Below, in pieces: positions 18,305 through 22,113 of a DNA stretch of 37,690 bases (within the stretch, counting starts at the first letter, position 1; each line of letters begins with the position of its first letter). A program made the translations under genes and the position numbers. The DNA comes from a virus, in IMG/VR virus record IMGVR_UViG_3300027126_000272, positions 1 to 37,690 of that record; one strand, 5' to 3'. Under the pieces are notes generated by a model. That model saw nothing but the letters and a program-made list of their open reading frames with translations. It had not been told where the DNA came from and did no database searches.

Positions 18305-19555
18305 TTATTCAAACTCATCATTTAACCATGAAATAAACAAATCTCTCATACGTTTACTAGGGATATAAACTGTAATTGGTTCACCATTTCTAATACGTGA
18401 TCTAAAAATAAATTGTATCAATTCGGATAATGCATACATTTTCTCATTTATTTGCACATTTTTATAGCACAAGGCTTTCTCAATCATTGGGTTGTGAAAT
18501 AAGTTCAACAAATAAGCAATTGCCCATGTATCACTATAGTCATTAGTTGCTTTGGTGTTATAGGATAACCATGATGCACTATACCTTCCCCCTGATATAA
18601 CACGCATCGCCTGTTTAAAAGTTGTCCATAATCTTTCGTTTTTATTGGCCTTAGTTATATTATTAAAAAAGTTTAATAATCTTTTTCGTAGCTCATTATT
18701 AGAATGTTTTTTAGTGACTAAATCTGCGGCACTAAGGGCGGTAACTTTATCACCAACCTCATTCATTTTACGATCATCAACGATTGTTATTTTATCTTTT
18801 AATTGTGATGGTAAAAGTCCAAACTTTTCAACCGTGTAATCAATGCCATTTGATTTGAGAAAAGCACATAATTGACTTCCTTCAAACATATAAGTTGATA
18901 TGTATATTTCTTTGAAAGATTTTATAATATCAACAGGAAACTCCCATAAAACTATTTTTTCATCAATAATTAATAATTGTCCTAAAGCACATAAGTTTGA
19001 AATTGTATCGAATCTTGTATTTTCAGTATACGCAATCTTTTCATTGTTGAATCTAAGGGTAATACCATCAGCATCAACAGACAGCACATTCGACTTTATT
19101 AGTTGTTTGCACTCGTTAATATCAAGTATATCCGTAGCAGGCTCATATATCGAAACAACTTCATCAAGAAATAACGTATATTCTTTTTCTTGAATAACAT
19201 TTGCTATAGAAGGTGTGAAGTTTGAAAAAAGACTATGTGTGGAAACAATATTGTACCCATTTTCAATTAACGTCATTGCATCTGATAATTTAGTCTCTCC
19301 TTTACTATTCGTAGGGTGTCTGAAACGTTTATTTTTTAATGGATTGGTTTCATCATAATAATACTCATCGTCAGAAACCATTAATGGACGTTTATAGACA
19401 TCGTTTTCATCATAAGATGTGCCAGCAATTCGATGACATTCTGACAATAACGGAGTAACATAGATTATGTTATTTGATGACTCAGCCATCATTTGAATCA
19501 TCTTGTTTGTTTTACCAGAACCACATAATGCACTAAACACTGTCACTTTTGTCAT
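18305..19555 (-). CDS. P-loop helicase-like ATPase (416 aa)
   Basis: Superfamily-2-like NTPase: Walker A CGSGKT at 11-16, an ITxVTPL-like motif (IIYVTPLLSE at 30-39), STHSLF at 105-110, and Walker B LFLDE at 128-132. The C-terminal half (YNTKATNDYSDTWAIAYLLN, then YALSELIQFIFRSRIRNGEP and IPSKRMRDLFISWL) resembles helicase-like replication proteins I associate with mobile elements and phages, though I cannot name the family. It starts with AAAGGA plus ATG, just downstream of a good sigma70-type promoter (19580-19608), and reads away from the repeat-rich intergenic region. This suggests an early gene, possibly a replication initiator or origin helicase acting at that region. Confidence 0.82.
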   Translation of the reverse strand: MTKVTVFSALCGSGKTNKMIQMMAESSNNIIYVTPLLSECHRIAGTSYDENDVYKRPLMVSDDEYYYDETNPLKNKRFRHPTNSKGETKLSDAMTLIENGYNIVSTHSLFSNFTPSIANVIQEKEYTLFLDEVVSIYEPATDILDINECKQLIKSNVLSVDADGITLRFNNEKIAYTENTRFDTISNLCALGQLLIIDEKIVLWEFPVDIIKSFKEIYISTYMFEGSQLCAFLKSNGIDYTVEKFGLLPSQLKDKITIVDDRKMNEVGDKVTALSAADLVTKKHSNNELRKRLLNFFNNITKANKNERLWTTFKQAMRVISGGRYSASWLSYNTKATNDYSDTWAIAYLLNLFHNPMIEKALCYKNVQINEKMYALSELIQFIFRSRIRNGEPITVYIPSKRMRDLFISWLNDEFE

Positions 19556-19579
19556 AATTAATCCTTTAGAAAGGTGATA

Positions 19580-19608
19580 ATTCTACCACATTTTTTACCA
19601 AATTTCAA
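19580..19608 (-). promoter_or_regulatory. Sigma70 promoter, TTGAAA-17-TAGAAT with extended -10
   Basis: On the minus strand, TTGAAA (19603-19608), a 17-base spacer ending in TGG, and TAGAAT (19580-19585). Each hexamer has one mismatch, and the TG one base before the -10 gives an extended -10 element. It drives the helicase-like gene with a leader of about 20 bases. Confidence 0.7.
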
Positions 19609-19795
19609 CAAAAAATACCCCCTAGATTTGCGCAACTACTAACACTTCTTTTACTATTTTTATTTTATATTTCTTATTAAAGAAAGATGGTGTAAACACA
19701 TGTTTTTAAAGAAGAAAAATTCAGGTCTAAGCATAGGGTCTGCTTAAATCCAAAAATGTAGTAAAAAATGAAGAAAAATTATAGTGTCAAAGACA

Positions 19796-20094
19796 CATAC
19801 TTGAGCGTAGCGAAAGTATCAGTTATAACGAACATAGTGAGTGAGGAAAAATAATTTAAAAATGTAAAATACCAGTATTAAAATTTTAATCATGGTATAA
19901 AAATCTCTACATCATATTTTCCTCATTCGCTACGCTCATTACAAATTTTATATTTGGTTCTATTCCTCATTCCATTCGTCATAGAACGTTCACTTCGTTC
20001 ATATTTTATATTGGTCAATTCAAATATCATATTTCCTCATTCGCTACGCTCACTATAAAATATAAAACTGATACTTTCGCTACGCTCAAGTATG
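19796..20094. repeat. Perfect 29-base inverted repeat, arms 241 bases apart
   Basis: Arms at 19796-19824 and 20066-20094 are exact reverse complements over 29 bases. The core of each arm is TGAGCGTAGCGAA or its complement, which also occurs at 19926-19938 and 20040-20052, so the left arm can pair with any of three partners. Outside the arms the match stops abruptly. Confidence 0.9.
19911..20052 (+). repeat. Direct repeat pair containing TTCGCTACGCTCA
   Basis: Copies at 19911-19938 (28 bases) and 20026-20052 (27 bases) are identical except for one T in a T-run. Both end in TTCGCTACGCTCA. Spacing between copies is 115 bases, filled with degenerate relatives such as CATTCGTCAT and CACTTCGTTCAT. 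Confidence 0.85.
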
Positions 20095-20315
20095 CCTAAC
20101 GACCATTTTTTAATCAAACAATCTTTTTCTTTTCATTTAAAAGAAAAGAGTCTATCAAACCAATTAAACACATTCATAGAACGCTCTATAAAGCGTTTTA
20201 AGACGCTTAAACAAAAATTAAGTACCTTCGTATTAAAATGCCATCAATACCTCCTTAAACGAGCTTATAGAAGGTTTTAGGGCTATTTGTTAAATGGTGA
20301 CAACTAAACTTTTAC

Positions 20316-20344
20316 TTGACAAATCAAAATTCTGTATATAAAAT
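20316..20344 (+). promoter_or_regulatory. Sigma70 promoter, TTGACA-17-TAAAAT
   Basis: TTGACA at 20316-20321 and TAAAAT at 20339-20344 with a 17-base spacer, one mismatch in total. It points toward the RlpA-like gene, leaving a leader of about 180 bases. Confidence 0.65.
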
Positions 20345-20428
20345 ATGCAACGTCAAAAAAGATAGTTGTTAAACTGGGTTTTTGAACACAAATTTTTACA
20401 TGTTATGGGAGTAAAGAGTTCAAAATTT

Positions 20429-20437
20429 TGATATAAT
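20429..20437 (+). promoter_or_regulatory. Extended -10 promoter TGATATAAT
   Basis: TG plus one base plus a perfect TATAAT (20432-20437). No convincing -35. It would start transcription near 20444 with a 90-base leader before the RlpA-like gene. Confidence 0.5.
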
Positions 20438-20534
20438 TGTGTGGTTATGAGACGCACTTCTGATGGGGACATTGTTGTATCTGACTGATCTATATTTTTA
20501 ATCCGTCCCTGTCCATTAGAGAGGTAAAATTTAA

Positions 20535-21026
20535 ATGTCTAATATAGTAAAATCATTGTTGGTTGCCATTGTATTCATGGCTCCAATCGCCGCCGAGGCA
20601 GGTAACACCAAGAAAACCGATCATTCGCATGAAAGCGTGGTGAAGACTGAAAAGAAGAAGAAGGGAAAGAAGAACGCCAAAAGTAAGGACACGATTTTGG
20701 TAAAGTCCACACACTCAAGAATTGAAATTGGTAAAGCATCTTGGTATGGGAAGAAGTTTATAGGTAGGAAAACTGCGAGTGGAGAGCGTCTAAACGGAAT
20801 TACAATGACTGCTGCTCATAAGAAACTACCATTGGGTACGATTGTAAAAGTAATAAACACGGAAAACAACCAAAGTGTTGTTGTTAAGATCAATGACCGT
20901 GGCCCTTATGTTGGTAAACGAATACTTGATTTATCACCGGCTGCTGCTAAACGAATCGGAATGATTGATGCAGGGGTTGCAAATGTTAGTATGGTTGTAA
21001 TATCAGAGCCTAAAAAGATGTATTAA
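20535..21026 (+). CDS. RlpA-like double-psi beta-barrel protein with signal peptide (163 aa)
   Basis: A cleavable-looking signal peptide (MSNIVKSLLVAIVFMAPIAAEAG) is followed by a Lys-rich linker and an RlpA domain from about residue 64: GKASWYGKKFIGRKTASGE, TMTAAHKKLPLGTIVKV, VVVKINDRGPYVGKRILDLS. The three residues matching the active site of Pseudomonas RlpA (a lytic transglycosylase for naked glycan strands) are present as E84, H95 and D121. It lacks a lipobox Cys and a SPOR domain, so it would be a soluble periplasmic wall enzyme. The ATG has a GAGAGG site. A terminator follows immediately, so it is a single-gene transcript. It may aid lysis or remodel the wall during infection. Confidence 0.9.
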   Translation: MSNIVKSLLVAIVFMAPIAAEAGNTKKTDHSHESVVKTEKKKKGKKNAKSKDTILVKSTHSRIEIGKASWYGKKFIGRKTASGERLNGITMTAAHKKLPLGTIVKVINTENNQSVVVKINDRGPYVGKRILDLSPAAAKRIGMIDAGVANVSMVVISEPKKMY

Positions 21027-21102: not shown

Positions 21103-22113
21103 ATGCCCGGTGCGGTTAGATTAGGTGATATGGGCAGTGGTCATGGATGTTTCCCGCCACATAATGTTATTGTTGGTAATCCAAAGGTATTAATTGAAGG
21201 AATGCCCGCTAGTTGTATAGGCGATTTATTAACAACACATTGTTGTGGCCCTGTGTGTCATCCGGGTGCTATTGCATCAGGTTCTGAAAAAGTATTAGTT
21301 GGTGGAAGACCTTTGGCTAAAATAGGGGATTTTGTTAATTGTGGATCAATTTTGATAACTGGCTCTACCAAAGTAAGGGTCGGTGAAGCGATTCCGATAT
21401 CTATCATGCCAACTTCTGTAGTTTCATCAACAGGTGAAGTAATATCATTGCCGCCACAATATAGCAGCGAAGCGGTAGGCCCAATAATACAATCTACGGG
21501 TAAGTATGTTGTGTTTGACGAACCTGACAACATAGAATATACACCACAAACTTTAGCTGATGACACAACGGAAGCGTCAACAAGTAAACCAGAAAGGGAT
21601 GTTAAGTCAATGAATACTGAACCAACGCCATTATTATCAGATTGTGCAAATATACAAAAGATAGATTACAATTTAAAACTCTCAACCCATTTTACATTGG
21701 GCGATTTAAGTACAAAATGCTTGTTCAAACATGAAATACAGGCACAGGCAGGATTTACGGTAGCACAGATTATATGTAATTTACAAGGTCTTGCTCAAAA
21801 TGTTCTTGAAAAGATATGGGAAAAGTATCCAAACTTTAGAGTAAATTCTGGATTTAGATCATTTACTGTTGGTAAAAGTCAACATGAAAAGGGGCAAGCT
21901 TGTGATATTCAGTGGCCCGGTATAACAAATGCTGAATACAAAGTTAGGGCACAATGGATGCGTGATAATTTGGTGTTTGACCAATTGTTATTTGAACATG
22001 GCAACATGATTTGGATACATGTTAGTTTTAATAGAAATAATCCTTCACAAAGAAAAGATGTTAGAACTATGTATAAAGGTAAGTTTGAACCGGGTATAGT
22101 TCTTTATTATTAA
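21103..22113 (+). CDS. PAAR-domain tail tip fused to an M15-type peptidase (336 aa)
   Basis: Residues 1-95 are a PAAR domain (MPGAVRLGDMGSGHG, CIGDLLTTHCCGPVCHPGAI, GRPLAKIGDFVNCGSILITGS), the zinc-stabilised cone that caps tail spikes, like T4 gp5.4. A disordered linker covers about 100-180. Residues 190-336 match zinc peptidases of the M15 family (FRVNSGFRS, SQHEKGQACDIQW, MIWIHVSF) with ligands H261, D268 and H306, which in phages cut peptidoglycan cross-links. The protein would thus be a membrane-piercing tip that carries its own wall-cleaving domain. A GGAGG site precedes the ATG. It sits on the plus strand away from the other tail genes and no late octamer is visible upstream. Confidence 0.88.
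   Translation: MPGAVRLGDMGSGHGCFPPHNVIVGNPKVLIEGMPASCIGDLLTTHCCGPVCHPGAIASGSEKVLVGGRPLAKIGDFVNCGSILITGSTKVRVGEAIPISIMPTSVVSSTGEVISLPPQYSSEAVGPIIQSTGKYVVFDEPDNIEYTPQTLADDTTEASTSKPERDVKSMNTEPTPLLSDCANIQKIDYNLKLSTHFTLGDLSTKCLFKHEIQAQAGFTVAQIICNLQGLAQNVLEKIWEKYPNFRVNSGFRSFTVGKSQHEKGQACDIQWPGITNAEYKVRAQWMRDNLVFDQLLFEHGNMIWIHVSFNRNNPSQRKDVRTMYKGKFEPGIVLYY

Follow-up and report, generated by a model that had tools for sequence, protein, structure and literature searches.

We lean towards the view that the divergent, repeat-rich and AT-rich intergenic region at positions 19556-20534 (979 bp) contains an origin of replication of a T4-type phage, be it the only one or one of several, and that the yonV-type protein encoded next to it would act as its initiator or origin-opening helicase. 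The window, i.e. the whole stretch of 37,690 nucleotides that was analysed, comes from a T4-type myovirus and covers part of its genome (portal Gp20, terminase, baseplate wedge, topoisomerase II large subunit), and the closest relatives of its portal in the phage collection are those of cyanophages (38%). A replication origin had already been suggested for this region in an earlier note made from the letters of the window. Comparison with other genomes supports the suggestion, short of proving it, because a member of the yonV family is located near the GC skew minimum for 19 of 23 phage genomes or contigs and because the family occurs on plasmids without a recognised Rep. Origin activity of the region, as well as binding and initiation by the yonV-type protein, are predictions from sequence. 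A wider proposal, to which we give somewhat less than an even chance, is that yonV-family proteins form a class of SF2-helicase-like initiators that had not been recognised before, present in large phages of the Gram-negative and Gram-positive world and on plasmids listed as rep-less, with the region described here as one of its origins.

If this is true, the missing origin and initiator would be supplied for phage SPbeta, the replication processes of which "have not yet been investigated" according to a review of 2021 (PMC8270828). Among the Acinetobacter plasmids that are said to be without an identifiable rep gene, some would gain a candidate Rep; for A. baumannii, plasmids said to be without one amount to 161 of 813 (PMC11702686). 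Some Acinetobacter plasmids of this kind carry carbapenemase genes. Plasmid typing and the calling of origins in metagenomic phages would both be improved.

Architecture of the intergenic region

The region is flanked by a minus-strand gene on one side and by a plus-strand gene on the other, and its GC content (29.3%) is lower than that of the whole window (34.6%). Its most prominent element is an inverted repeat (19796-19824 and 20066-20094) that is exact over 29 bp, with a chance expectation of ~1.5e-10; the runner-up among the perfect inverted repeats of the window has 17 bp. At 85% the repeat grows to arms of 46 nt (19796-19841 and 20049-20094, plus strand, as for the following repeats). 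An inner inverted repeat is nested in it, with arms at 19823-19850 and 19917-19944 that pair at 79%, and a direct repeat of 44 nt is present at 19918-19961 and 20032-20075, the second copy being 80% identical to the first. The left arm of the long repeat can form pairs with three alternative partners. The AT-richest 100 bp (19821-19920, 21% GC) are located inside the inverted repeat and represent, by inference, a possible unwinding stretch. The 37.7-kb window contains four copies of the word TTCGCTACGCTCA, all of them inside the region, one on the minus strand (19802-19814) and three on the plus strand (19926-19938, 20040-20052 and 20076-20088); its reversed pattern does not occur. The exact inverted repeat, the long direct repeat, the pairing of the left arm with three partners and the four copies of the word had all been described in the earlier note and were found again, the copies being exact and accompanied by one variant, TTCACTTCGTTCA, with three mismatches (19989-20001, plus strand). 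A 57.9-kb sister contig from another sample (G001) contains the region and its repeat arrangement without any difference, and the region is therefore not an assembly artefact.

Whether these repeats are a working part of the proposed origin is a separate matter. The earlier note had called iterated short motifs typical of origins that are bound by an initiator, and the idea that TTCGCTACGCTCA is such an iteron was first raised because the Macrococcoides plasmid pMiCAN82c shares the 16-mer CATTCGCTACGCTCAT, which it carries inside nested inverted repeats upstream of yonV, and because eight of nine degenerate matches to TTCGCTACGCTCA lie upstream of yonV. A yonV-specific iteron was rejected, since the word is widespread without yonV: unrelated bacterial genomes have 94 stretches with two copies 20-50 nt apart, the 16-mer is present in 67 viral contigs, and not one of 146 further loci retrieved through the repeated word encodes a yonV homologue. 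Judged by this distribution, TTCGCTACGCTCA can be counted among the promiscuous interspersed repeats. It is little short of an even chance that the repeats of the region are a selfish or host-derived interspersed repeat of the TGAGCGTAGCGAA class, which would have landed and expanded in a tolerant spot and would be functionless for the phage. The occurrence of the word and of the 16-mer in so many unrelated stretches and contigs is in agreement with this explanation, as is the finding that stretches of 20 bp and 23 bp of the arms were found nowhere else in the collections scanned; moreover, a long inverted repeat is not a general trait of yonV gaps, since one that ranks first or second within its genome was found in only 11 of 27 cases. 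On the other hand, the sister contig has exactly the same arrangement, and many yonV gaps bear their own, different iterated motifs, which vary by phage (ATAACACTAA in B9, CTGACAAGA in the Edwardsiella phage). In VH-8, B9, H101, G022, G019 and the window phage, no other gap of the genome is as rich in repeats as the one upstream of yonV, which speaks for an origin there. An interspersed repeat would compete only with the repeats as a functional part and not with the region as an origin; the repeats may be structural parts of the origin or passengers.

The word TGAGCGTAGCGAA is common to the window and to interspersed bacterial repeats of the GTCATTCTGAGCG-AGCGAAGAATCT type, from which the window copies differ by other flanks and by their arrangement in one nested inverted repeat. 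Arrays of TTCGCTACGCTCA/TGAGCGTAGCGAA, often in the form GTCATTCTGAGCGTAGCGAAGAATCT, were seen in Cardiobacteriaceae, Bacteroidia, Campylobacter, Clostridia and Calothrix (loci L325, L331, L338, L353 and L367 among others). The nested inverted repeats upstream of yonV in pMiCAN82c (L254, 6067-6510) have arms of 32 and 25 nt at 84% and a fold z-score of -7.9.

The yonV-type protein

The gene on the left of the region (18305-19555, minus strand), our candidate for the replication initiator, codes for a protein that is matched over its full length (residues 1-415) by the profile of phrog_2467 (E 7.6e-73), a family that is annotated as of unknown function and that includes YonV of SPbeta. Homologues with identities of up to 43% were found in 55 phage records, SPbeta yonV among them, and 219 candidate stretches of IMG/VR encode a homologue. 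Members of the family have a P-loop and SF2-like motifs with conserved GxGK (Walker A), DE and Q..R..R signatures; G14, K15, D131, E132, Q381, R385 and R389 are invariant, and profile searches gave weak matches to ResIII/DEAD. A confident AlphaFold model of the protein (pLDDT 91.3) matched SF2-type helicases in the PDB (DEAD-box, RecQ, XPD, RadD), the matches being weak with TM values of about 0.3-0.47. The earlier note had called the product of one flanking gene a helicase-like ATPase; both its motifs and its fold are SF2-helicase-like.

Origin-binding helicases of the herpesvirus UL9 type (PF02399) have an SF2-type fold too, and UL9 is among the weak structural matches; in sequence, however, the yonV family shows no significant match to this profile (Herpes_ori_bp; best E 0.094, in one of 12 family members). 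A known counterpart, yonV of SPbeta, belongs to the same family with 32% identity over the full length to the window protein, and in SPBc2 the gene is located 300 bp from the detrended GC skew minimum. The SPbeta gene differs from that of the window in having only a small gap upstream, and it sits within a yonT-yoyJ-yonU-yonV transcript (PMC5848175).

Position of the family relative to GC skew

GC skew had been named in the earlier note as a check on the origin. The cumulative minimum of the window and of the 57.9 kb available from the sister contig is at position 20260, inside the region, which holds for a fragment of 38-58 kb, as the genome-wide minimum could differ. The comparison was extended to 22 further phage genomes or contigs that carry the family, 23 together with the contig of the window phage. 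In 19 of these a member of the family is located within 4.1 kb of the detrended cumulative GC skew minimum, and a rank test of yonV against all open reading frames by closeness to the minimum gave p 2.5e-8; as some of the 23 genomes are relatives of one another, they were also merged into six groups, for which p is 1.1e-4. Among 17 families common to at least eight genomes, yonV is nearest to the minimum (median 1.9 kb), followed by a family at 4.75 kb, and most others are beyond 10 kb. B9, G011 and G012 do not fit the minimum, and in H101, a further exception, the yonV-family gene is 1.5 kb from the skew maximum.

The skew minima coincide with divergent strand switches, which counts against an origin. 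An ordinary divergent promoter or regulatory region between the late structural genes and the block of genes on the right would explain this as well: the switch in skew would then reflect the transcribed strand and the repeats would be operator-like or terminator-like debris. We consider this unlikely, although several features point in its direction. The gene strand switches exactly at the region and skew follows gene strand, and the region contains terminator-like hairpins (19796-19784 on the minus strand, 19984-20000 on the plus strand) as well as sigma-70-like promoter matches directed outwards. One of these points toward the yonV gene (19580-19608, minus strand, 10/12 consensus) and one toward the right-hand genes (20316-20344, plus strand, 11/12 consensus), so that the outward promoters claimed in the earlier note do have consensus matches on both sides, but as a set such sites are not above chance (9 compared with 6.2 in shuffled sequences). 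Because plain GC skew follows gene strand, a strand-controlled test was run in which the third-codon GC skew of same-strand genes to the right of yonV was compared with that of genes to the left. With the strand held constant, 18 of 22 genomes still show a higher skew to the right of yonV than to the left (Wilcoxon p 0.003), which speaks against a purely regulatory region. Compared with other anchor points yonV ranks higher (p 3.6e-7), and in the window phage it ranks first; for D'Alembert and pCD, which have paralogs, the copy nearest the minimum was taken. The strand-controlled effect is modest. A regulatory region also does not account for the other conserved families, which are not at the skew minimum, nor for plasmids without a recognised Rep that carry the yonV gene with a conserved DnaA box.

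In Fusobacterium phage Fnu1 (MK554696, 39890-41025) an inverted repeat of ~265 bp is present in a gap at the GC skew maximum (40028), i.e. the opposite of the location of yonV at the minimum; this repeat is possibly a terminus or a genome-end structure.

Plasmid relatives and DnaA boxes

The family is encoded on 23 Acinetobacter plasmids, in three Bacillus plasmid records and on two Macrococcoides plasmids of only 10.5 and 11.9 kb. PLSDB lists no replicon type for any of the eight yonV plasmids inspected but gives one for a control plasmid, and the Rep_3 domain (PF01051) was detected in none of the eight but in the control; PF03090, PF06970 and PF01446 were likewise found in none of the eight, but these profiles gave no signal in their control genomes either. 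When 20 proteins encoded on the two Macrococcoides plasmids, one yonV protein among them, were scanned with Pfam, no Rep family exceeded the cut-off, and two helix-turn-helix proteins of these plasmids show weak similarity to RepL (E 0.0087) and RP-C (0.023).

Acinetobacter plasmids without an identified rep (pNDM-GJ02, pTS37365, pBJAB0715) code for a protein with 45-46% identity, and as in the window the yonV-family gene is located behind a divergent gap of ~1 kb. For pTS37365 no Rep type has been reported (PMC10272872), and in pNDM-GJ02 a gene for a ParA-like ATPase and parB adjoin the yonV-family gene. Five records of the Acinetobacter type contain a single TTATNCACA each, ~200 bp upstream of the yonV-family gene. 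In an alignment of the five upstream regions (67% mean column identity) this DnaA site is an invariant TTATCCACA, and iterated AAGACAA/TTGTCTT dyads are present. The window differs from these relatives in that its region lacks both the DnaA box and the dyads: neither TTATNCACA nor TTATCCACA with one mismatch was found there. The absent box and an iterated word that is not specific for yonV both count against the region as an origin, and with them it does not conform to a DnaA-dependent iteron origin. Across the family, 12 DnaA boxes TTATCCACA are located within 4 kb of yonV compared with 3.6 expected; this excess of 8.4 is not approached by 60 permuted control words, which reach 2.7 at most, and it comes mainly from clusters of four boxes in H101 and G019. 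In each of these two the four TTATCCACA boxes are perfect and form one cluster, at ~58621 in H101 (KR534323) and at ~83108 in G019, with the yonV-family gene ~2-3 kb away.

Theta plasmid origins with iterons of the Rep_3 type likewise have a repeat array upstream of a candidate Rep gene, and the plasmid relatives resemble them further in having a DnaA box and par genes close by. The proteins differ, as Rep_3 is a winged-helix protein and the yonV-type protein is SF2-helicase-like.

Instead of initiating replication, the yonV-family protein could be an accessory helicase (for recombination, DNA repair or defence, or from a mobile gene) that is merely found near origins. The SF2 fold is generic, and VH-8, Edwardsiella phage ABTNL-9, D'Alembert and pCD1602_4 contain two to three paralogs each, which one would not expect of a single initiator; upstream of one yonV copy of D'Alembert there is a separate gene with the annotation replication initialization protein. 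Against such a role, the yonV-family protein is the only helicase-like protein found on the two plasmids of 10-12 kb, where no Rep family scored above the cut-off, and we regard an accessory function as improbable. In several of the phages with paralogs, a gene annotated as UvrC-like or hypothetical directly follows one yonV copy.

Proposed mechanism

If the region is an origin, the yonV-type protein would recognise a site in it and melt AT-rich DNA, upon which the phage replisome could be loaded. Forks would then leave the region toward the two divergent gene blocks, and the yonV gene would be transcribed in the direction leading out of the origin, an orientation shared by many plasmid rep loci. 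The nested inverted repeat probably either acts as a DNA structure, a cruciform or a single-strand hairpin at the opened origin, or separates the divergent transcripts.

The earlier note had also considered a new structured or switchable RNA transcribed from the region, and this we regard as very unlikely. The predicted fold is indeed very stable on both strands (z -11.1 for plus, -12.8 for minus), and by inspection the differences between the copies of the inner stem are all transitions, four of six of which leave wobble pairs on the minus strand. The extreme z-scores are, however, an automatic outcome of the inverted repeats, which are themselves not general in yonV gaps. A search of the region against Rfam 15 gave nothing at the gathering score and only weak matches below the cut-off, and a homologue search provided no partner for covariation, since the sole relative, the sister contig, is identical and thus holds no covariation information. 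A MITE or transposon was rejected, as a second copy is absent from the record, the arms have no relatives and no target duplication was seen at the arm ends.

Further features of the region and its right flank

A search of T4 late promoters (TATAAATA) gave five matches in the window, which is the chance level, and none in the region; a tRNA search found nothing. Part of the region is possibly coding, because a putative open reading frame of 62 amino acids (20092-20280, plus strand) begins within the long inverted repeat, in its right arm. The ATG of the frame is formed by the final three bases of this arm, the predicted product is basic, and it may be a real small gene. The gene to the right of the region (20535-21026, plus strand) codes for an RlpA-like DPBB lytic transglycosylase (PF03330, E 3.8e-26). 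At 21103-22113 of the window, an N-terminal PAAR motif is fused to a C-terminal peptidase M15/endolysin-like domain.
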